From a methanotrophic endosymbiont of Bathymodiolus puteoserpentis (Logatchev) (GTDB taxonomy: Bacteria > Pseudomonadota > Gammaproteobacteria > Methylococcales > Methylomonadaceae), in assembly GCF_900128525.1 (NCBI RefSeq), contig NZ_FQTQ01000108.1:62001-126000 (forward strand): DNA of 64,000 nt, given 5' to 3'. The position numbers and the translations under genes are program-made. A model generated the notes under the pieces. The model was not told the DNA's origin. It saw only the letters and a program-made list of their open reading frames with translations, and ran no database searches. This document shows, in pieces, positions 8,050-19,400 of the stretch. Every line of letters starts with the position of its first letter. Position 1 is the first letter of the stretch.

Positions 8050-9975
8050 TTAAACCTCTTTTTTATTTAAATCCTGCTCTTTATCCAATACCGGAATATC
8101 GTCGTCATCCTGACTCGTTTCCTGCTTAGAATCCGTTTTTATTTCAATATCTTCTGGCTCTTCTTCCGGCGGATCTATTTTCTCACCTTGCAAAAGTCGC
8201 TCAATTTGATGTTTATCAATTGTTTCCCAATCCATCAAAGCTTGCGCCATATTGTGTAAAACTTCGATATTATCTTTTAAAATCTCTTCCGCACGCTGAT
8301 AGTTTTTATCAATAACACTGCGCACTTCATCATCAATTACCTGTGCCATTTGCTCTGACATTGGTTTCGCTTGAGCCCCCATATAGCCGCCTTCACTATC
8401 ACCATAATCCATAGGTCCTAATTTATCAGACAAACCCCATCGAGTCACCATATTACGTGCCAGCTGCGTAGCACGCTCAATATCATTAGATGCGCCAGTG
8501 GTTACTTTATTTTTACCGTAAATCAATGCTTCAGCAATACGCCCACCGAACAATCCAGATATTTGGCTTTCTAATTTATCTTTACTGGCACTATAAGTGT
8601 CGCGCTCAGGTAAAAACATAGTGATCCCTAAAGCACCACCACGCGGCATAATACTCACCTTATAAACCGGATCATGCTCAGGCACATGACGGCCAACAAT
8701 AGCATGCCCCGCCTCATGATAAGCCGTCATCAATAAATCCTCTTTACGCATTACCATCGAGCGCTTTTCAGCCCCCATTAGTAATTTATCCCGCGCACGA
8801 TCTAAATCATCCATGGTCACTATACGCTTATTATTTCGAGCCGCTAACAATGCACCTTCATTAACCAAATTAGCTAATTCAGCTCCTGAAAAACCAGGCG
8901 TACCTCGCGCTAAATCTCTAATACTCACATCTTCTGCTTGAGGAACTTTTTGGATATGGACCTTCAAAATTTGCTCGCGACCTTTAATATCAGGCAAGCC
9001 AACATGAACTTCTCGGTCAAAGCGCCCAGGCCTTAATAAAGCTTTATCTAAAACATCTGAACGGTTAGTTGCGGCGATAACAATAATACCTTCATTACCA
9101 CTAAAACCATCCATTTCCACCAATAACTGGTTTAAGGTTTGCTCACGTTCATCATTACCCCCTCCCCCAGTACCAGCCCCACCACGCTGGCGACCTACCG
9201 CATCAATCTCATCAATAAAGATAATACAAGGCGCTCGTTTTTTAGCCTGTTCAAACATATCACGCACACGTGACGCACCTACACCAACAAACATCTCTAC
9301 AAAATCAGAACCTGAAATAGAGAAAAATGGCACATTAGCTTCACCGGCAATTGCCCGCGCTAATAAAGTTTTACCTGTTCCTGGAGGACCAACTAATAAC
9401 ACACCATGAGGAATCTTACCGCCAACAAATTCGTATTTAGAAGGGTCTTTTAGAAAATCAACAATTTCCATCACATCTTCTTTTGCCTCTTCTACACCTG
9501 CAACATCAGAAAAACCGACTTTAATTTGATCCTCTTCAAGTAGCTTAGCACGACTTTTTCCCATGCCCATTTGACCGCCGCCACCGCCTGCACCACCTTG
9601 CTGCTTGCGGAAAAAATAAACCCAAACAGCAATAAGCAGCAACATTGGCGCCCAAGAAATAAAAATTTGCGTCAGCATTGACTGCTTTTCAGGTGTTGCA
9701 ACTTTAATCTTTACACCATATTGAATAAGGTCATCAATTAAATGGGTATCATCCGGATTATAAGTTATAAAGGGTTCACCATTAATTAACTTGCCTTTTA
9801 CCTTTTCACCCTCAATGGTGACTTCAGATACCACCCCATTGCGGATATCCTCAATAAAATCAGAGTACAGAATTGTATAGTTCTGCTCATAGGTCGGTTG
9901 CATTCGTCCCATCATGCTAAAAAGTACACTACCAACCACTACGAACATAGCAATTCTTACTAAAATCTTCATCAT
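8050..9975 (-). CDS. ftsH: ATP-dependent zinc metalloprotease FtsH
   Basis: This 641-residue membrane AAA+ protease degrades misfolded membrane proteins and regulators. Two transmembrane segments (about residues 5-22 and 103-122) flank a periplasmic domain. The AAA domain has Walker A GPPGTGKT, Walker [16 protein letters not shown] and the second region of homology [17 protein letters not shown]. The zinc site is HEAGH. The C-terminal tail is acidic. The gene has no rrmJ/ftsJ next to it, unlike E. coli. The start could be either of two adjacent ATG codons. Confidence 0.97.
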
Positions 9976-10109
9976 ATAATTTCTCTATTATTATCAAAAA
10001 CCAGGAACTAAAACTCCTAATTTTTATTATTTTTTATTCTTTGTTTCTCTGTACCCCATGAGCTTTGTATAATGCTAAAATTAATTTATACAACCAAAGG
10101 AACTAAACT

Positions 10110-10346
10110 ATGCCAATCTCATCAAATCTTGTTGAAGAAATTACCATTTTAACACGTTACAACCAAGCATCAACGCAAGCCGGTATTAAAGTACACGACA
10201 CAGCACAACCAGAATCCATTGCTGCCGTTAAGCGTTTATTTGATAAAGGCTTAATCTCTCGAGATGATGGCGGCTATTTAACTGACTTAGGCATTGAAAC
10301 TGCTGAGCATATACAAAGAGCCTTAACTATATTAACATCCAAATAA
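10110..10346 (+). CDS. TIGR02647-family small protein
   Basis: This 78-residue protein matches my recollection of the TIGR02647 family: an N-terminal LVEEI..LTRYN segment, a central QAGIKVHDTAQPESIAAVKRLFDKGLI and a C-terminal DGGYLTDLGIETAEH. The layout resembles a winged-helix-like fold, and relatives are annotated as possible DNA-binding proteins; no function is established. AAAGGA precedes the ATG and a TATAAT stands ~37 bp upstream at 10068-10073. It is divergent from ftsH. Confidence 0.8.
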   Translation: MPISSNLVEEITILTRYNQASTQAGIKVHDTAQPESIAAVKRLFDKGLISRDDGGYLTDLGIETAEHIQRALTILTSK

Positions 10347-10365
10347 GCTTCTTTATTTATCAAAA

Positions 10366-10404
10366 AAAGTAAGGCTAATAAATTTTCAAAATTTTCCTTA
10401 CTTG
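10366..10404 (+). terminator. Hairpin downstream of the TIGR02647 gene
   Basis: AAGTAAGG pairs with CCTTACTT, and the inner bases AAATTTT and AAAATTT also pair. It lies ~20 bp after the stop. Together with the next hairpin it is the likely 3' end of this short transcript. Confidence 0.5.
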
Positions 10405-10425
10405 TTAGACTTTTCTAGCCCATGC

Positions 10426-10454
10426 AAACAGCTATAAAATACTTATAGCTGTTT
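10426..10454. terminator. Perfect hairpin, terminator-like
   Basis: Perfect 12-base arms (AAACAGCTATAA and its complement) surround a 5-base loop. There is a short A run on one side and a short T run on the other, so it could work in both directions. The remaining ~270 bp up to 10725 shows no gene and is AT-rich leader sequence for the lipoprotein. Confidence 0.5.
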
Positions 10455-10725
10455 AGGTTACCTAGTTCGTAGCCGTTGTTTTTTTATACTGAAAAGCCTC
10501 CTCCCCCACTCACTTTTAATCTTACCAACCTTCCCCTAAAGAGATAAGAATAAATACAGAGAATCCATATTTCAAATTCTCGCATAAAAACCAAACACTA
10601 TATTAGCATACAATGAAATAGATACGTATCGTTTACTGCTATTAAAAACATACAACATAAGCTACTATTGAAATACTTAGAAGCGAAAATTTTGCTACTG
10701 TCTCTCACTCTAACAGGACACTAAA

Positions 10726-11319
10726 ATGAGAAAATACCTCTTATCATTTATCGTTATAGTATTTATAACCAGCTGCTCTTCACTTACCCTAGATACTGAT
10801 TACGATAAATCTATAGACTTTTCCAGCCTTAAAACTTACCGCTGGCATGCTCAAAATAAATACAATACTGCGAGCCAACAATATTTAAAAGTTAACAACT
10901 TAATGGATCAGCGCATTCGATCTACCATCAATCAGCAGTTAAAAACTCAAGGCTATATCTTAGAAAGCACAAAAAAGGTCGATTTTTTAGTCAATTACAG
11001 TGTTGTTATAGAAGATAAGACCGATATACATACCTATAATAATTACAATGGTTATTATCCAGGTTTTCGCTACGGTACAGGCTTTGGATATTACGGGCAT
11101 AGTATGGGCATAGGATATAGCTCAGCATCTGATATACAAGTCATTTATTACCAACAGGGCACACTAATAATTGACATCATTAACCCAGAAACAGACCAAT
11201 TAATGTGGCGAGGGGCTGCTGATGGCCGCTTACCTAAAAGTGCCAACAAAGCAGAAAAAGACAAGCTTATCCAACAATATGTGACAAAAATATTATCCGA
11301 TTTTCCGCCCAAAAAATAA
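10726..11319 (+). CDS. DUF4136 lipoprotein
   Basis: This 197-residue protein starts with a lipoprotein signal peptide (MRKYLLSFIVIVFITSC, probable lipidated Cys17). It then shows the DUF4136 pattern: DYDKSIDFSSLKTYRW near the N-terminus, DFLVNYSVVIEDK in the middle and GTLIIDIINPETDQLMWRGAADG near the end. A Tyr/Gly-rich stretch lies between about residues 105 and 130. An envelope location is inferred; the function of the family is unknown. AACAGGACACTAAA precedes the ATG. Confidence 0.83.
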   Translation: MRKYLLSFIVIVFITSCSSLTLDTDYDKSIDFSSLKTYRWHAQNKYNTASQQYLKVNNLMDQRIRSTINQQLKTQGYILESTKKVDFLVNYSVVIEDKTDIHTYNNYNGYYPGFRYGTGFGYYGHSMGIGYSSASDIQVIYYQQGTLIIDIINPETDQLMWRGAADGRLPKSANKAEKDKLIQQYVTKILSDFPPKK

Positions 11320-11436
11320 TAGCGTTTTTGAGTGTCAAATTTGGCGGTACACAGCCATTGAGAGGCAGAAGTAATACGTCATGAGACGTAGTGTCTAGCC
11401 GAGCATCCTTCATTTTTCGCGGTTTACACTTTCTAA

Positions 11437-11495
11437 GTGGGAGCGGCTTTAGCCGCGATAGTGGCATGAACTATCGCGGCTAAAGCCGCTCCCAC
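11437..11495. repeat. Dispersed palindromic repeat, family B (copy 1), perfect 26-bp arms
   Basis: GTGGGAGCGGCTTTAGCCGC continues into GATAGT to form a 26-base arm perfectly complementary to the other side, with the 7-base loop GGCATGA. It lies between the convergent lipoprotein and rhodanese genes. A diverged copy is at 20340-20395. It has no U-tract. Confidence 0.9.
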
Positions 11496-11553
11496 GAAAC
11501 CTATTAAATAGTGCAAACTACTTTTGGCACTATATGAAAGCGATACTCAAAAT

Positions 11554-11964
11554 TCATTCTACGAGTAGCCCGGCTTTTACCCAATCTGGGAAACCGCCGC
11601 GATAATAAAAGACTTTCGTCCAACCCCAAGCCACTGCTTTTTCGCTGGCTACTGCACTGCGCTGACACATGTCACCATTACAGTAAAACACCACTGGCTG
11701 ATGCTTTTTCACAACTGCCGCTAAAGATTCTTCCGTTAAATCCAGTACCAAATCCAAATACACCGCCCATTGAATATGACTGGATTGGTAATCCGTAACT
11801 CGACGCACATCAATAAAAGTAACGCCTTGGTTCATCAAGGATTTTGCACGTTTAGTGCTTATTGTTACCGCGCCATCCACTTGTTCTGGAGCCGGTGATT
11901 TCGCCAACACACTTTCAGTAACAAATAAAAAACTGACCAACATAATTAAATAACGAATTTGCAT
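11554..11964 (-). CDS. Periplasmic rhodanese-like protein
   Basis: This 136-residue protein has an N-terminal signal peptide (about residues 1-21, ending VLAKS) and one rhodanese domain. It contains VTFIDVRRVTDYQSSHI and the active-site loop YCNGDMCQRSA, in which the first Cys would carry the persulfide, then GWTKVFYYRGGFPDW. Family members transfer sulfane sulfur or bind metabolites; the role of exported single-domain forms is mostly unknown. It lies downstream of the PEP-CTERM gene on the same strand, separated by a terminator. Confidence 0.87.
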   Translation of the reverse strand: MQIRYLIMLVSFLFVTESVLAKSPAPEQVDGAVTISTKRAKSLMNQGVTFIDVRRVTDYQSSHIQWAVYLDLVLDLTEESLAAVVKKHQPVVFYCNGDMCQRSAVASEKAVAWGWTKVFYYRGGFPDWVKAGLLVE

Positions 11965-12066
11965 AATAAACTCCTAATACGAATGATTTATGTTTACTTT
12001 TAACATATTTGACAGTATTTTTGTTAAAAATATCAAATAACTTTCAGGATTTTATAAATTTTTCGC

Positions 12067-12101
12067 AAAAAAAAAGCGGCTCACCTAAAAGGTGAGCCGC
12101 T
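12067..12101 (-). terminator. Intrinsic terminator after the PEP-CTERM gene
   Basis: AGCGGCTCACCT and its complement form a perfect 12-base stem with a 3-base loop. On the minus strand it is followed by nine T residues. This is a strong terminator 25 bp after the stop codon. Confidence 0.93.
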
Positions 12102-12125
12102 CCTCTAAAAATACTTACTTATAAA

Positions 12126-12800
12126 TTAAGCAGATTTCTTACGACGGCCCAAACCAAATGCCACTAAACCCATGCCTAATAGAGCCAAAGAAGTAGGTTC
12201 TGGAACAGTAGGAGGAACAAAAGCTTGACTACCAAAAGATGCAAATGAATCAAAAGTTGCATCAACAGCAATATTATTATGAATTAATAGATTTATGGTA
12301 TTTACACTAGTTAGATCACCAAAAAGAGAATGTGCAAACACTATATCACCCACAGCATTTACAAACTGTGAAGAACTCACTCCATCAACTACTAAAGTTA
12401 CATCTACCCCACCTTGATCTATAGTTAACAAACTAAGAACAAATGCATCATTAAATATTGAGGCTCCCGTTTCTGCGACAGTAAAATCAAATCCCCCAGC
12501 ATTAGCATATGCACTTGTTGTATCTGACTGGAGAGCTGTAGGTGTACTGATTGATAAAATTCCTCCAAAAACATCTGTGCTAGCATGAGCTCGGGTGCCT
12601 ATAGGATTCTCTACAATGCTTAGTACACGATCCAAAGAAAAGTCAGAGCTGGAACCTAATGTCGTTGTCTCAATGCCAGGTGCATTTATAGCGCCAGTTA
12701 GATCTGCAGAAAAATCATCAATTATAAATGCAGCCTGAGCATTTGATGCCATTACTAAAGCGCTAACCGCTAAAGTCAATCCTAAAATATGTTTGTTCAT
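12126..12800 (-). CDS. PEP-CTERM sorting-signal protein
   Basis: This ~224-residue exported protein has a signal peptide (MNKHILGLTLAVSALVMASN then AQA), a Ser/Thr/Asp-rich mature region without recognised enzyme motifs, and a C-terminal VPEPTSLALLGMGLVAFGLG followed by the basic RRKK. That is the PEP-CTERM signal processed by exosortase in bacteria that make exopolysaccharide. Start 12800 is chosen because GGAG lies 10 bases upstream; an in-frame start at 12836 would put 12 extra residues before the signal peptide. No exosortase gene is in the window. Confidence 0.9.
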   Translation of the reverse strand: MNKHILGLTLAVSALVMASNAQAAFIIDDFSADLTGAINAPGIETTTLGSSSDFSLDRVLSIVENPIGTRAHASTDVFGGILSISTPTALQSDTTSAYANAGGFDFTVAETGASIFNDAFVLSLLTIDQGGVDVTLVVDGVSSSQFVNAVGDIVFAHSLFGDLTSVNTINLLIHNNIAVDATFDSFASFGSQAFVPPTVPEPTSLALLGMGLVAFGLGRRKKSA

Positions 12801-12834
12801 TTTGTTATACTCCAAATTAAAGTTTAAAGTCATC

Positions 12835-12848
12835 ACGGAACATTCCGT
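12835..12848. promoter_or_regulatory. Short palindrome in the PEP-CTERM leader
   Basis: ACGGAA-CA-TTCCGT is a perfect 6-bp inverted repeat with a 2-bp centre, ~35 bp upstream of the PEP-CTERM ATG. The size is typical of an operator half-site pair, but no binder is known. Confidence 0.35.
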
Positions 12849-13031
12849 AGTGGAGTGCCCCCAATCGACTCTATAATAGATATCTGAAGCTTTCAGATGC
12901 TACTTCGCAGAATATGAGGCAAATAATGCAAAATACAAAAGAAATAAGTAACAGAATATTTATGTAAAAAAAACTGACACCCTTTTTCTTTGTTTTTGCC
13001 GGTGTATTTTACGTACCCTTAGTGCCTTTAA

Positions 13032-13069
13032 CTGTCATTTGCTGCCATAAAACTGTCATTTTCTGTCAC
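13032..13069 (+). promoter_or_regulatory. Pho-box-like array (PhoB-type direct repeats)
   Basis: Four helix-phased repeats are visible: CTGTCAT (13032), CTGCCAT (13042), CTGTCAT (13053) and CTGTCAC (13063), spaced 10, 11 and 10 bp. The middle pair, CTGCCATAAAACTGTCAT, differs at one base from the E. coli Pho-box pattern of two CTGTCAT repeats 11 bp apart. If the last repeat overlaps a -35, TATTAC at 13084-13089 could be a -10. The array points toward the + strand, where the next gene begins ~600 bp away. Confidence 0.65.
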
Positions 13070-13194
13070 CTCATACAGCCCCTTATTACTACGCCCCCCC
13101 CTCAAATACTCCTCTTATAAAAATACAACTACTGAAGTTCTTTCAATACTATTAGATACTTAACATGTAAGATTATAACTTATCATTATTAATA

Positions 13195-13253
13195 GAATGC
13201 CGTATTTTAGCCCGTCTTTATAGCGGAAAATAGCAAGCTAAAGCACGGCACTC
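13195..13253. repeat. Degenerate palindromic repeat
   Basis: GAATGCCGTATTTTAGCCCG pairs imperfectly with GCAAGCTAAAGCACGGCACTC. The core resembles the TTTAGC core of the other dispersed palindromes. It has no U-tract. Confidence 0.55.
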
Positions 13254-13689
13254 TAATAAACTACCTTCAACTTAATAGCTCAAATGCCATTGGGTAGTGC
13301 GTCATTACATAAAATCACCCAATTACTAAAATCTCAACCTGCCTATATCGCTTACGGGATACAGGGAAATTAAGGTAATAACTTAGTCTCCAACGCTGCT
13401 ATAGGTATATAATTGTCAGGTTTCACCACGTTGTACCATGATTTTTTAAAAAAACACCGGTCATCAGAACGACTTCGTCCTTAATGACTGTAAAAATACT
13501 TGACAATAAAGAAGGGGATTTCACAGTTACAGTGCTTTTGCTTTAACACAATGGCTTATATCTTATTTTAATTGCATAACTAAGTAGCTTAATAAGCATA
13601 TTGAACTATCATTAACTGTGACGACACACTTGATTTTTATACTGGCTTAGATAAATATCATCACTACCCAGAAAATACATTTTGTTTTG

Positions 13690-15621
13690 ATGCACTCCTT
13701 ATTACTGATATTTTTTTTTATACCTCAGCTACTCTATGCTCAACAAAACATACCTGTCGCAGCAGGCGAGAATTCTAAGCAACTCAGCATGGAAGTCAGG
13801 GTATTACGTGACCAAGCAGGTGATAAAACACTAGCTAATGTGCTAGCCTTAAAAAACGACTTTAACTTAGTAAAACTCCCCTTTAATCGAGGCCACACCC
13901 GGGATGCTTATTGGTTTTGCATTACTGTTCAAGGTATAAAAGATATTCAAAAAAACTGGTTATTATCAGTCACGCCTGCCACCTTGAATAATTTACGTTT
14001 GTATACCCCTAATGACAATGGCGGTTTTACTCTACATCAATCAGGCAATCAGGTGGCAGCAGCATTGCGCCCAATAGATAAACAATTCGGAGCCTTTACC
14101 TTTCCAATCACATTAACGGATGTCACTTCGACCACCTTTTATCTTCGACTACAAACACAATCCACTTTCACACTGAACCTTTCAATAGCTACAGCAGCAA
14201 ACCTTGCGCAAACTAATAGCCAGAATAAATTACTGCTTGGACTTATATTAGGTATTTTACTAGTTATCTTATTCCTGACTCTAGTAATGTGGAATAAGAA
14301 ACACCATTTGATCTATATCGTACTCATCAGTTATATCATTGGCTGGAGCATGTCTCTCTCTGCAATCGATGGCATGATCACTGATTACTTATTTCCTTAT
14401 CATCCTGAAATTGCTATGCTAATGTCGCCTCTTGGAGGCGGTATCATGGCATTCTGTTTTGCTGCTTTCAGCATCCTATTTTTTGATACTCCGCGCTATT
14501 TTCCACGCCTAACGTTTATTTTTTATGGCGTAATGGCTTTCACAGTATTAGCGGCACTAAGCATGCCTTTTGGCCAGTTTATTACTGTTGCACCTATTGC
14601 AATGTTAGCTACCCTTTTATCTTTACCTGCTCAGCTGTATATCAGTTGGGTAAGAGCCTACCGTGAACAGTTAGGAGATAAAGCTATTTTTTATGGCTCT
14701 TTATTAAACTTAATATTTTCTATGCTTTTGCTGCTGTTTATATTAGGCTTAATTTCCATTAATATCATGCAATTATTAGTTGCTCAAATGAGCGTGCTCG
14801 CAATATTCCTTTTTTTTGGACTATACCAACGCTTTCATAAACTCGAGCTAACCCAAGAGGAAGCTAATATCCGTAGTGAAATTGCCGAAAAATTAATCAC
14901 TATAGAAAAACAGCACCACAAAGAATCATCGACCTTTTTCACCCTTGTTGTTCATGAAATAAAAACGCCACTAGCCGTTATAGATAGCACCATACAGACC
15001 TTACAAGCATACCCTACCCTGTCTAAGGAACTCGTGTCTGAACATCACCATAGAATTCGTCAATCTATCGCACATCTCAATAATTTATTGGAAAATACAC
15101 TCTCTAGTGACTATGATAATCAACTGCTACTTACCCATAGCGAACAATTTTTACTTGCCCCCTTTGTTAAGAAAACTATTCATACCTTATCAACCAATAG
15201 CAATTGTGAGTTCGAAGTAGCTCATGATCACCGCTGTATTGCTGATCGAAGATTACTTAATTTAGCTTTAAGTAATCTTTTTGTAAATGCAGAAAAATAT
15301 AAAACAGCAAATACACTCGTCACTTTACAAGCTAGCAAGAACATGCAGCATGGAAAAGATGGCACACTATTCACTATTAGCAATAACTACACCTCCCTAG
15401 TAAAACCCGATACAACAAAATGGTTCACTAAATATTACCGAGAAAATAATCAAACCAATATTGATGGCTTAGGTTTAGGGCTGTATTTGGTACAACAAGT
15501 CGCTCAAGCTCATGCAGGCACTCTTAATTGTTCCGTAACGCCCACATCTCATGCCAATCAATGGTCAATTTCAATCCACTTATGGCTACCAAGCAACAAC
15601 GTGAAGGACGACAAGAAATGA
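13690..15621 (+). CDS. Sensor histidine kinase with 7TMR-DISM input module
   Basis: This ~643-residue membrane kinase has a signal peptide (to about LLYA), then a periplasmic beta-rich 7TMR-DISMED2-like domain (about residues 25-165) and seven hydrophobic segments (about 175-385). The cytoplasmic part has the H-box VVHEIKTPLA, the N-box NLFVNAEKYK and the G2 box GLGLGLYLV. The G1 region is unusual: TISNNYTS replaces the usual DNGxG, a variation I associate with 7TMR-DISM kinases. ATG 13690 directly follows an in-frame TTG. The stop overlaps the regulator's ATG in an ATGA, so the two are co-translated. The ligand is unknown. Confidence 0.88.
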   Translation: MHSLLLIFFFIPQLLYAQQNIPVAAGENSKQLSMEVRVLRDQAGDKTLANVLALKNDFNLVKLPFNRGHTRDAYWFCITVQGIKDIQKNWLLSVTPATLNNLRLYTPNDNGGFTLHQSGNQVAAALRPIDKQFGAFTFPITLTDVTSTTFYLRLQTQSTFTLNLSIATAANLAQTNSQNKLLLGLILGILLVILFLTLVMWNKKHHLIYIVLISYIIGWSMSLSAIDGMITDYLFPYHPEIAMLMSPLGGGIMAFCFAAFSILFFDTPRYFPRLTFIFYGVMAFTVLAALSMPFGQFITVAPIAMLATLLSLPAQLYISWVRAYREQLGDKAIFYGSLLNLIFSMLLLLFILGLISINIMQLLVAQMSVLAIFLFFGLYQRFHKLELTQEEANIRSEIAEKLITIEKQHHKESSTFFTLVVHEIKTPLAVIDSTIQTLQAYPTLSKELVSEHHHRIRQSIAHLNNLLENTLSSDYDNQLLLTHSEQFLLAPFVKKTIHTLSTNSNCEFEVAHDHRCIADRRLLNLALSNLFVNAEKYKTANTLVTLQASKNMQHGKDGTLFTISNNYTSLVKPDTTKWFTKYYRENNQTNIDGLGLGLYLVQQVAQAHAGTLNCSVTPTSHANQWSISIHLWLPSNNVKDDKK

Positions 15622-16319
15622 CTCGAATCTATATTGTAGAAGATAATGCAGATTTATTAGAAAATGGTATCTTATGTTTAAAAGCTCAAGGATTTGACTG
15701 TTATGGTGCGTCTGATGCTCAAAGCCTAAATACCTTAATCTCAGAGCAACTTCCAGACTTAGTGGTCTTAGACTGGATGTTACCTGATGAGTCCGGCCTA
15801 GATATCGCGCAAAAGTTACGCAATAACGATCAAACAAATAAAATTGGCATTATCTTCCTGACGGCTCGTAGCAATATTACTGATCGTATCGCAGGCCTAG
15901 AATTTGCCGATGCATACCATATAAAACCGATTGATTACCAGGAGCTGGGAGCCATTATTAATAGTATTAATCGTAGGTCAGCAACTATTAGCCCAGATAA
16001 AACGGCTAAATCTACGTGGCAATTACACAGTACAACCTTAGCCCTACACTCCCCAGCAGGTGAAGTGCTGAGTTTATCTCACCGTGAATTTATATTATTA
16101 CGTGAACTTGCACAAAGCTCTAATGCTCCTGTCTCTGCAAAACAGATTATTGAAGCTTGGGGGGAAAGCTGGCTCCACTATGAAAAAAACCGCCTTGAAT
16201 TATCACTATCTCGACTACGAAGAAAAATTAAAAATATAAGTGATGACTCACTAAACCCTGTTCGCGCCATACGAAATCAAGGCTATCACCTGATGATACC
16301 GATCCAAGTTCACGATTAA
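15618..16319 (+). CDS. OmpR-family response regulator
   Basis: This 233-residue regulator has an N-terminal receiver domain with the acidic pair in IVEDNADL, the phospho-acceptor Asp in VVLDWMLPDE, the switch Thr in IFLTARS and the conserved Lys in HIKPID. A C-terminal OmpR/PhoB winged-helix domain follows (about 135-230), ending LSRLRRKI...IRNQGYHLM. The start is ATG 15618, overlapping the kinase stop by 4 bp; an upstream in-frame ATG at 15528 would lie inside the kinase gene. Target genes are unknown; the nearby PEP-CTERM gene is a candidate by position only. Confidence 0.92.
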   Translation: MTRIYIVEDNADLLENGILCLKAQGFDCYGASDAQSLNTLISEQLPDLVVLDWMLPDESGLDIAQKLRNNDQTNKIGIIFLTARSNITDRIAGLEFADAYHIKPIDYQELGAIINSINRRSATISPDKTAKSTWQLHSTTLALHSPAGEVLSLSHREFILLRELAQSSNAPVSAKQIIEAWGESWLHYEKNRLELSLSRLRRKIKNISDDSLNPVRAIRNQGYHLMIPIQVHD

Positions 16320-16414
16320 GCAATGCACACAGTCTACAGCTTTAGGCTAAACAGCATGGTCAGCCCTTTAAGGAGCAGTACTTTGTATTTTTACTTTTTC
16401 AATTTAGTTAAAGC

Positions 16415-19400
16415 CTACAAATCACCCCAAGCCTTCTCTAGCCTTTTAGCCGAAATGGGATAAGGTGTTCTTAACTGCTGAGCAAAGAGTGACACTCGAA
16501 ACTCTTCAAGCATCCAGCGAAAGGCCTCACTATCAGGGTTAACAATTTCATTTTTCTGCCGCTTTTCGGTACGCTGCCAAAACCATTGCTGAAATTTTGC
16601 TATTTCTTGCATTTTTTGCTGGTCTTTAGCTGGCTGCTGTAACATTGTTTGTAAGCGTGCTTCTAGGGCTTTTAAATAGCGCGGATAATGCCTCAAATGT
16701 TCATAAGCGCTCTTGGTTAAAAAACCCTGATAAAACAAACGGGCTAATTGTAACTGCACATCCTGTACCGACTTATCTTGCTGAGGCATGCGATCCACTT
16801 GCTGTTTAAGCTTGGCATAATGCGCTAATGCACTGACTACGCAGTCGCCAATTTTAGTCGACATAGTCATTAGTTCCGACTTGTTATCTTTTAAGCACTG
16901 CTCAAATTGTTGTTCACTACGAATGGTGCGGCCACTGACAAACACGGATTTAATAATTAAGCTGAGCATATCTTCTTTATAATTGCGGCTTAAAATATCC
17001 TTAGTTAATTCAGGATGCTGCACGAGCCGATTGTAAGCTAATTCCGCTTCTGGCGAGAATGGCAGGTTCTTTAAAATATATTTGGCCTCCTTTCTTAACT
17101 GTATCTGAAATAAACGTGCTAAGCCTGCTTCATGTTGTAAGGCCGCCTTTTCTGGTGTATCTAAAATACGCACACCAACCGTCTCACCTTCATCAATAAT
17201 TGCCGGATAACCGACAAAATCTTGCCCATCCTGTTCAAATTGATAAACTTCAGGTAAGTCATCAAACGCCCATTTAATACAACCCGTGTAGTTAAGCTCA
17301 TCTTCAGCGAGTTGATTAAAGCTATCCCCTGCTTTTTCTGTGTATTTTTGCTGTAAAGCTTTTAAATCACGGCTATTATCTAAGTGCTTACCTTGTTCAT
17401 CAACCACTCGGAAATTCATGCGTAGATGGTCGGTTAGTACCTCTTTATTCCATGCTGTTAAAGGAATCGCTTCGCCCGTCAATTTACGCAAGCGCATAGC
17501 AATCCACTCATATAAAGAGCCTGTGCCATCTGGTTCAACTTCAAGGCAGCGCTCAACCATAGCAGGTACAGGAACAAAATGTTTACGTAGTTGTTTAGGC
17601 AAACCTTTAATTAAAGCAGTCATTTTTTCACTCAGTAAACCTGGAACTAGCCATTCAAATGGCTGCTCTGTGAGTTGGTTAATCTGGTGTACTGGAATAA
17701 TGACCGTTACTCCATCTTCTTCGTGCCCTGGCTCAAACCGATATTGTAAAGGCAGTGTTAAACGCCCCACTTTTTTCTCATCAGGGTACTCCCAAGAGCT
17801 AATATGTCCTTCATCTTGACGGGTTAAATCTTCTTTGGTTAAAAACAGTAACTTTGGCTGTTTGCGCTCTGCTTTTTTACGCCACTGATCAAAAGTAATA
17901 CCATTAACCACTTCTTCAGGTAATTTTTTATCATAGAAATCATATAACCATTCTTCATCTTCGATTAAATCAACACGGCGACCTTTATGCTGAATATAGC
18001 CCACTTCTTCTAATAAAGTTTCATTCGCTTTAAAGAAGGGCGCGCGTGTATGGTAATCATGCTCAACTAGCGCATGACGAATAAAAAATTGACGTGCCGC
18101 TTTTGGATCGACATGCTCATAAGGAATCTTGCGCCGACTTTGTAAAGTTAAACCAAATAATAGCGTGCGTTCATAAATAGCACTGCGCGCAGATTTTTTC
18201 TCCCAATGCGGATCAAAATGATTTTTCTTAATCAAATGCCCTGCACAACGCTCAATCCATTCCGGTTCAATTTTAGCGACACAACGGCCATAAACCTTAC
18301 TGGTTTCCACCTGTTCCGCTGCCATAATCCATTTAGGGCGTAATTTATGCTGCCCCGCTCCTGGGAAAATATAAAATTTTAGGTTACGTGCACCTAAATA
18401 CTCATATTGCTCATGTTTAAATCCGATATTGGATAATAATCCAGGCAATAAGGCTTGATGTATCGCTTCATAAGAAGCCTCAGTGCTATTAACCTTAAGT
18501 TTTAACTCGCCTTTAATCACTTGTAAGATTTGCGTATGTACATCTTGCCATTCTTTTAGGCGAATATAAGATAAGAAGTTCTGTTTACACCATTTGCGCA
18601 GTTGGTTATTAGATAAATGTTTTTTGCGCTCGCCAAAGGTATTCCAGATTTTTAAATAACTCATAAAATCAGAATCAACACCGACAAATTCAACATGCTT
18701 AGCATCGGCTTGTTGCATTTTATCGGCTGGCTTTTCGCGCGGATCTTGAATACTTAGCCCAGAAACAATAATAGCAATTTCATTTAAACAAGACATTTCA
18801 TTGGCTGCAATTAGCATTCGCGCTAATTTTGGATCGACGGGTAGTTTGGATAATTGCTGTCCTATAGGCGTTAGTTTTCCTGACTTATCCAGCGCATTAA
18901 CTTCTTGCAACGTTGTTAAACCATCGCGAATCATTTTATCTTCAGGTGGCTCAACAAAAGGAAAATCACGTATATCACCCAATTTTAATGATGACATTTG
19001 CAAAATAACGGAGGCTAAACTAGTACGTTTAATTTCTGGCTCAGTAAATTCAGGACGACTTAGATAATCTTCTTTAGAATACAAGCGGATACAAATACCA
19101 TCGGCAACTCGACCGCAACGCCCTGCTCTTTGGTTGGCGCTCGCTTGGGAAACTTTTTCAATCGGCAAACGCTGAATTTTACTGCGATGACTATAACGAC
19201 TAATCCGTGCATGACCAACATCAATAACACTACGAATACCTGGGACAGTTAAAGAAGTTTCCGCCACATTGGTCGCTAAAACAATGCGCCGCTTGCCACC
19301 TTTAGGTTTAAACACGCGCTCTTGTTCACTGACACTAAGTTTAGAATACAGCGGTAACACGTCAAATCGACCATTATTATGCTTGCGTATAGATTCATCG

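Follow-up and report, generated by a model that had tools for sequence, protein, structure and literature searches.

Our analysis suggests that the array of four CTGTCA-type repeats in the non-coding region between a PEP-CTERM gene and a sensor histidine kinase gene is the operator of the kinase and response regulator pair encoded beside it, through which the pair would activate the PEP-CTERM gene and, in at least one relative (G004), the kinase operon. Judged from sequence comparison, we consider this assignment moderately likely. In the mechanism that we propose, the 7TMR-DISM kinase would partner the adjacent response regulator, and the regulator, once phosphorylated, would occupy each CTGTCA pair of 10-bp spacing in the form of a tandem dimer, so that the array studied here would take up two dimers. 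The bound regulator would then activate transcription from a TAWAAT promoter, and the resulting PEP-CTERM transcript would open with a leader of c-di-GMP-I riboswitch descent. The array, its pitch, its position and its orientation are described from the window, by which we mean the whole 64,000-nucleotide stretch that was analysed, located in contig C108 of a draft genome (G000) of 3.23 Mb, and from the related genomes of the same order. The features of the region are collected in Table 1.

Table 1. Features of the region in window coordinates
Feature	Position	Strand	Remarks
PEP-CTERM gene, likely target	12126..12800	-	224 aa, ATG at 12800, PEP-CTERM sorting signal
5' leader of the PEP-CTERM gene	12823..12932	-	aligned with c-di-GMP-I aptamers of relatives; broken pairs
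putative -10 hexamer TAAAAT of the PEP-CTERM promoter	13006..13011	-	20 bp from the last TGACAG; start site predicted
repeat 1, CTGTCA	13032..13037	+	from sequence
repeat 2, CTGCCA	13042..13047	+	10 bp past repeat 1
repeat 3, CTGTCA	13053..13058	+	11 bp past repeat 2
repeat 4, CTGTCA	13063..13068	+	10 bp past repeat 3, with which it forms an exact 10-bp pair
dispersed repeat	13206..13279		3 more genome places, 80-81% identity
dispersed repeat	13410..13452		3 more genome places, 86-97% identity; more in G264
weak third pair, CTATCATTAACTGTGA	13606..13621	+	from the pattern listing
sensor histidine kinase gene	13687..15621	+	domains 7TMR-DISMED2, 7TMR-DISM_7TM, HisKA, HATPase_c
OmpR/PhoB-family response regulator gene, proposed array binder	15618..16319	+	domain match

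The repeat array

The sequence-only reading had described four phased CTGTCA-type repeats with spacings of 10, 11 and 10 bp, and this description was borne out. The array departs from four copies of CTGTCA by one mismatch in 24 letters, whereas the best 10-11-10 array in 1500 dinucleotide shuffles of the intergenic region (the 886 bases that separate the PEP-CTERM ATG from the kinase start) had at least seven. The four-repeat array is genuine and lies well past chance expectation. The pair CTGTCATNNNCTGTCA occurs exactly at a single place in the genome, which is the array, and with one mismatch at two places, the neighbouring pair within the array and a site inside a coding frame. With up to two mismatches it is found at 37 places and the reversed control at 39; this gives no sign of a wider regulon of the 10-bp pattern in this genome, and such a lack of genome-wide enrichment is as expected for a local operator. 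The weak third pair was considered as an operator of the kinase gene and rejected, because the matching stretch of G013, compared by eye, does not keep it; it is probably a chance occurrence.

The array has two properties expected of an OmpR/PhoB-family operator, being made of direct repeats of a short half-site and co-occurring with one regulator gene; direct repetition of the half-site is the rule for the family as set out in passages of PMC4832192. The adjacent regulator scored 132.8 bits against the PhoB model, below the cut-off of 296.2, and is not PhoB. The regulators of the related loci share the stretch NR(L/M)EL-x-LSRLR near the C-terminus, which we take to be the recognition helix, and its RLR is also found in the PhoB encoded by G000.

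Arrangement in related genomes

An orthologue of the regulator (E <= 1e-50) was found in five of the 311 genomes of the order, namely G000, G013, G008, G004 and G264; the genomes are mostly drafts, and absence from them is weak evidence. Conservation of the repeats in relatives, a check proposed in the sequence-only reading, was found: an exact CTGTCA-N4-CTGTCA lies in the adjoining non-coding region at all four of the five loci that could be assessed, and no such pair arose in 8000 shuffles of each adjoining region. The fifth locus (G013) was not assessable because its contig offers only 518 bp ahead of the kinase gene, less than the distance at which the array stands in the window; no pair lies within those 518 bp.

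Three of the four loci carry the array upstream of a PEP-CTERM-type gene. The layout of the window is repeated in G008, where an array with two 10-bp pairs lies between the kinase gene and a divergent gene whose product begins like that of the window (MNKNILGL). The target frame of G008 gave no Pfam match and has no sorting tail. In this region (L042 9279-11049) the frame, which is PEP-CTERM-like, ends at VPYPLNN beside transposase-like frames (9866-11049), so its sorting tail seems to have been removed by an insertion element. G264 belongs to another genus. There the array, with one 10-bp pair, stands upstream of the PEP-CTERM gene, and the kinase gene and then the regulator gene follow downstream, all in one direction. 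The kinase frame of this locus (L070 1905-2762) is short at the N-terminus, comprising the kinase core only, with the sensor part missing. Between the window and G264, identity is 75% over a 95-base stretch that takes in part of the array and extends in the direction of the PEP-CTERM gene, and 79% over the leader; the PEP-CTERM proteins are 31% identical.

The fourth locus differs. The kinase gene of G004 is directly preceded by three consecutive repeats of 10-bp spacing, which lie 33-58 bp from its start and after a class-II tRNA-synthetase gene, and no PEP-CTERM gene was seen by eye among the frames around the kinase. The kinase of this genome is split over two overlapping frames (L043 5314-7243), which may reflect a frameshift or an assembly error. 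Since the pairs of G004 sit elsewhere, directly before the kinase, the pairs are not explained by plain DNA kinship; since the promoters of the window, G264 and G008 are homologous, the independent placements number two. The short distance to the kinase start suggests that in G004 the regulator and kinase pair probably also controls its own operon.

The motif alone is a poor guide. A search of the whole order for exact CTGTCATTNNCTGTCA returned 14 sites in 13 of the 311 genomes; its reversed control gave 9, spread over 4 genomes, with six of them in a single one. The kinase/regulator locus accounts for four of the 14 (one each in G000 and G008 and two in G004, thus three of the five regulator genomes), five fall inside long frames, and those of G084 and G224 are in non-coding places that are short or unclear. 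The pattern also occurs between the genes for ribosomal protein S2 and an M24 peptidase, presumably methionine aminopeptidase, in G109, G110 and G022 of one genus (domains checked in one). In these three genomes, which lack the regulator, the exact 16-bp pair lies directly before the peptidase start (L048, L049 and L050 at 1501). Altogether ten genomes without the regulator hold exact CTGTCATTNNCTGTCA somewhere, and the pair of G264, the variant CTGTCAAATGCTGTCA, is outside the search pattern. The pattern is by itself uninformative across the order; its placement is informative.

No relative was found when the named genomes were scanned with the kinase; scanning with the regulator alignment gave 16 loci, three of them the loci of G013, G004 and G264; the 13 others were dropped as distant (<=34% identity). 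In the loci fetched for two kinase relatives at 25-26% identity (G073, G125), no pair of 10- or 11-bp pitch was present with up to one mismatch.

The PEP-CTERM promoter and its leader

On the PEP-CTERM side, the array is followed at a nearly constant distance by a TAWAAT hexamer, at 20 bp in the window (TAAAAT), 21 bp in G264 (TATAAT) and 21 bp in G008 (TAAAAT). Seen from the gene, the array therefore occupies about 20-57 bp upstream of the hexamer. This is a usual position for activators of the OmpR/PhoB family, so the array probably serves to activate the PEP-CTERM gene. Both a regulatory function of the repeats and control of the divergent PEP-CTERM gene, one of the roles that the sequence-only reading had offered for the site, are supported, with the adjacent regulator as the protein that would bind. 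CpxR and other OmpR-family regulators have operators upstream of the promoter, with half-sites in tandem at about one helical turn. The array has the same tandem layout; CpxR-type operators differ from it in the sequence of their half-sites, and the array would serve one local regulon.

The leader of the PEP-CTERM gene in the window aligns with the aptamers of relatives and descends from a c-di-GMP-I riboswitch. The leader of G008 (L042 9141-9247) passes RF01051 (c-di-GMP-I) with 40.1 bits at a gathering threshold of 35; that of G264 (L070 462-560) passes no family, its match to RF03167 being below threshold (35.5 bits, E 4.8e-7, gathering 59), and the window leader has no Rfam match of its own. 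When 22 base pairs were placed from the Rfam match and the hairpin that follows it, all 22 could form in G264 and in G008, with three of the six pairs of the first hairpin changed on both sides between these two, whereas the window has seven non-pairs and one gap. The window leader thus looks degraded on sequence grounds, and it may have lost ligand binding because of the broken pairs and the lack of an Rfam match.

A model built from the three leaders matched in 99 of the 311 genomes, its three sources matching by construction, and one locus from each of 30 of these genomes was fetched (L120-L149). A c-di-GMP-I riboswitch was present at gathering in 18 of the 20 leader loci scanned, the two without being those of G264 and the window. 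Downstream frames were available at 29 loci, of which 16 matched floc_PepA, five Pfam PEP-CTERM and three VPLPA-CTERM (E <= 0.001), many of these sorting matches being through the tail only and not over the curated cut-off. Two of the frames resemble haemagglutinins and one a GTPase. Leaders of the c-di-GMP-I clan thus precede many genes with PEP/VPxP-type sorting tails in the order. This association is not new, since c-di-GMP riboswitches beside PEP-CTERM genes are described for Methylophaga GP59 in the relevant part of PMC12530212. Among the copies compared here with such riboswitches (PMC12530212, in the same part, and RF01051), that of G008 belongs to the family and that of G264 falls below threshold; the window copy stands apart by its broken pairs and missing match.

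The 30 leader loci also served as a control for the array. A 10-bp pair with up to one mismatch was found in three, exactly those of the window, G008 and G264, which are the ones adjoining the kinase/regulator pair. The distance from the start of the array down to the leader is about 100-180 bases in these three. Of the 27 loci without a pair, 26 include 289 bases or more ahead of the leader, and L146 only 51. One of the pair-less loci (L127) comes from G013, on another contig than the regulator gene of that genome. Another case is G019, with a leader of 104.8 bits yet no kinase match, no regulator orthologue at threshold and no pair in the fetched locus. The leader is widespread and the array is not.

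The gap before the kinase gene

No plus-strand frame of at least 60 aa precedes the kinase gene on the side that the array faces, in agreement with the sequence-only reading that no gene starts there for about 600 bp. The array and the kinase gene are about 620 bp apart in the window, about 114 bp apart in G008 and 33 bp apart in G004. Two dispersed repeats lie in the gap of the window and hint at insertions. They cover about 117 of its roughly 620 bases and so account for some of the difference in length; to name them as its full cause would be too strong. The second of them, at 13410-13452, has 11 listed places in G264 with E up to 4e-4, and it overlaps a palindrome at 13439-13456.

A phosphate-controlled small RNA transcribed from the site into this gap, another of the earlier proposals, found no support. 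The length of the gap and its lack of frames of 60 aa would suit such a gene. A scan of 10300-16500 at gathering gave no Rfam family, three weak sub-threshold matches in 12700-13700 were judged to be chance, and no terminator-like site was present in 11960-13760. The gap has only two short stretches in common with the region upstream of the kinase gene in G013, and the dispersed repeats also speak against a small RNA, which we regard as very improbable.

Alternative explanations

The sequence-only reading had taken the array for a double Pho box. The genome does encode a PhoB, in another gene that scores 323.9 bits (cut-off 296.2), Pho-type CTGTCAT half-sites are present in the array, and the claim that the middle pair differs at one base from the 18-bp E. 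coli pattern CTGTCATNNNNCTGTCAT held: this pair and four others of equal score are the best matches in the genome, and two of those four are likely Pho boxes. The difficulty lies in the pitch. According to passages of PMC2648988, a Pho box consists of two direct 11-bp repeats, each made of CTGTCAT and 4 less conserved bp, so that a double box would be spaced 11-11-11 where the array is spaced 10-11-10. Nine loci with Pho-type pattern matches in G000 were inspected, and the three chosen for a fitting downstream gene (phoB, a DUF3450 gene and a Porin_O_P phosphate-selective porin gene) all have 11-bp spacing; the 11-bp pattern with up to three mismatches is enriched in this genome (238 places compared with 170 for the reversed control). 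An 11-bp pair with up to one mismatch is confined to the window, G008, G004 and G264 having 10-bp pairs only at this stringency, and exact 10-bp pairs are thus kept in all four assessable loci as opposed to 11 bp in the three examined Pho boxes. In M. tuberculosis PhoP, of the same family, a spacer shorter by 1 bp lowered the affinity about 20-fold (PMC4832192, in the part concerned), which may serve only as a guide here since PhoP is another protein. The occurrence of the array follows the adjacent regulator gene instead, and that regulator is not PhoB. Orientation is a further point. Pho box half-sites face the promoter that they control. At all three PEP-CTERM loci the half-sites read TGACAG toward the PEP-CTERM gene, CTGTCA pointing away from it; on the kinase side it is CTGTCA that faces the kinase gene. 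The array is probably not a Pho box, for all that both consist of direct CTGTCA half-sites for a regulator of the OmpR/PhoB family, and binding by PhoB with a phosphate response of the PEP-CTERM gene or the kinase operon seems unlikely to us.

An array that serves only the kinase operon, by autoregulation, we consider about as unlikely, or slightly more so. It would be joined in G000 to a leader of some 600 nt, and such kinase control through a long leader had been suggested for the site. CTGTCA faces the kinase gene in the window, G008 and G004, and the array of G004, with a TATAAT 18 bp past its last repeat, is well placed for kinase control, which is possible in the window too. Against it, the distance to TATAAT is not constant on this side, being 27 bp in G008. 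The case is less clear for the window, where the stretch 5-40 bp past the array toward the kinase gene has no TATAAT-like hexamer with up to one mismatch. Exclusive control of the kinase is also hard to reconcile with G264, whose kinase gene lies on the far side of the PEP-CTERM gene from the array, and with the conserved flank and TAWAAT hexamer on the PEP-CTERM side. The remaining candidate for PEP-CTERM transcription is the PrsK/PrsR system with sigma-54, to which the array would be incidental. Passages of Haft et al. 2006 (PMC1569441) tie this system to a motif that precedes 99 of the 167 PEP-CTERM genes of proteobacteria, and they describe a two-component control of genes behind a long non-coding region that resembles the present case. 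The window and G264 both keep a stretch TGTC-NN-T8-ACA ending in TTTTTTTTACA, which may be likened to the 17-nt motif 1 of Haft et al. by its TTTACA end. PrsR is of the NtrC type and works with sigma-54, while the regulator here is of the OmpR type, and no GG-N10-GC (-24/-12) element was found in the three upstream regions (window, G264, G008). The array is conserved too, and we think it improbable that PrsK/PrsR is the controlling system.

Implications

Compared with these alternatives, control by the adjacent kinase/regulator pair brings together a familiar kind of switch, a local OmpR-type operator, and a class of target usually ascribed to another system. A partial precedent is the Desulfovibrio response regulator DVUA0057, for which the relevant part of PMC3333781 reports predicted PEP-CTERM targets enriched in DAP-chip; its gene belongs to a plasmid-borne exopolysaccharide operon, and the likeness noted here concerns the targets. 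A search of the open-access literature found nothing that joins 7TMR-DISM with PEP-CTERM. Passages of Haft et al. 2006 (PMC1569441) foresee that more PEP-CTERM regulators and DNA motifs are still to be discovered, and the array provides a concrete candidate for PEP-CTERM regulation in the form of a short motif with a likely regulator and a target.

A broader proposal is more speculative, and we offer it as a tentative possibility that may well prove wrong. PhoB with its 11-bp pitch and the local regulator with its 10-bp pitch might share CTGTCA and be insulated from each other by pitch alone; an envelope signal and the riboswitch-descended leader could doubly gate a matrix protein in relatives like G008, and the 11-bp middle pair might let PhoB in at the window's array. 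A CTGTCA array without the 11-bp pitch is not necessarily a Pho box, and a caution to that effect seems in order. With the Pho boxes of the same genome, the array makes a natural pair in which to study what keeps related regulators separate.
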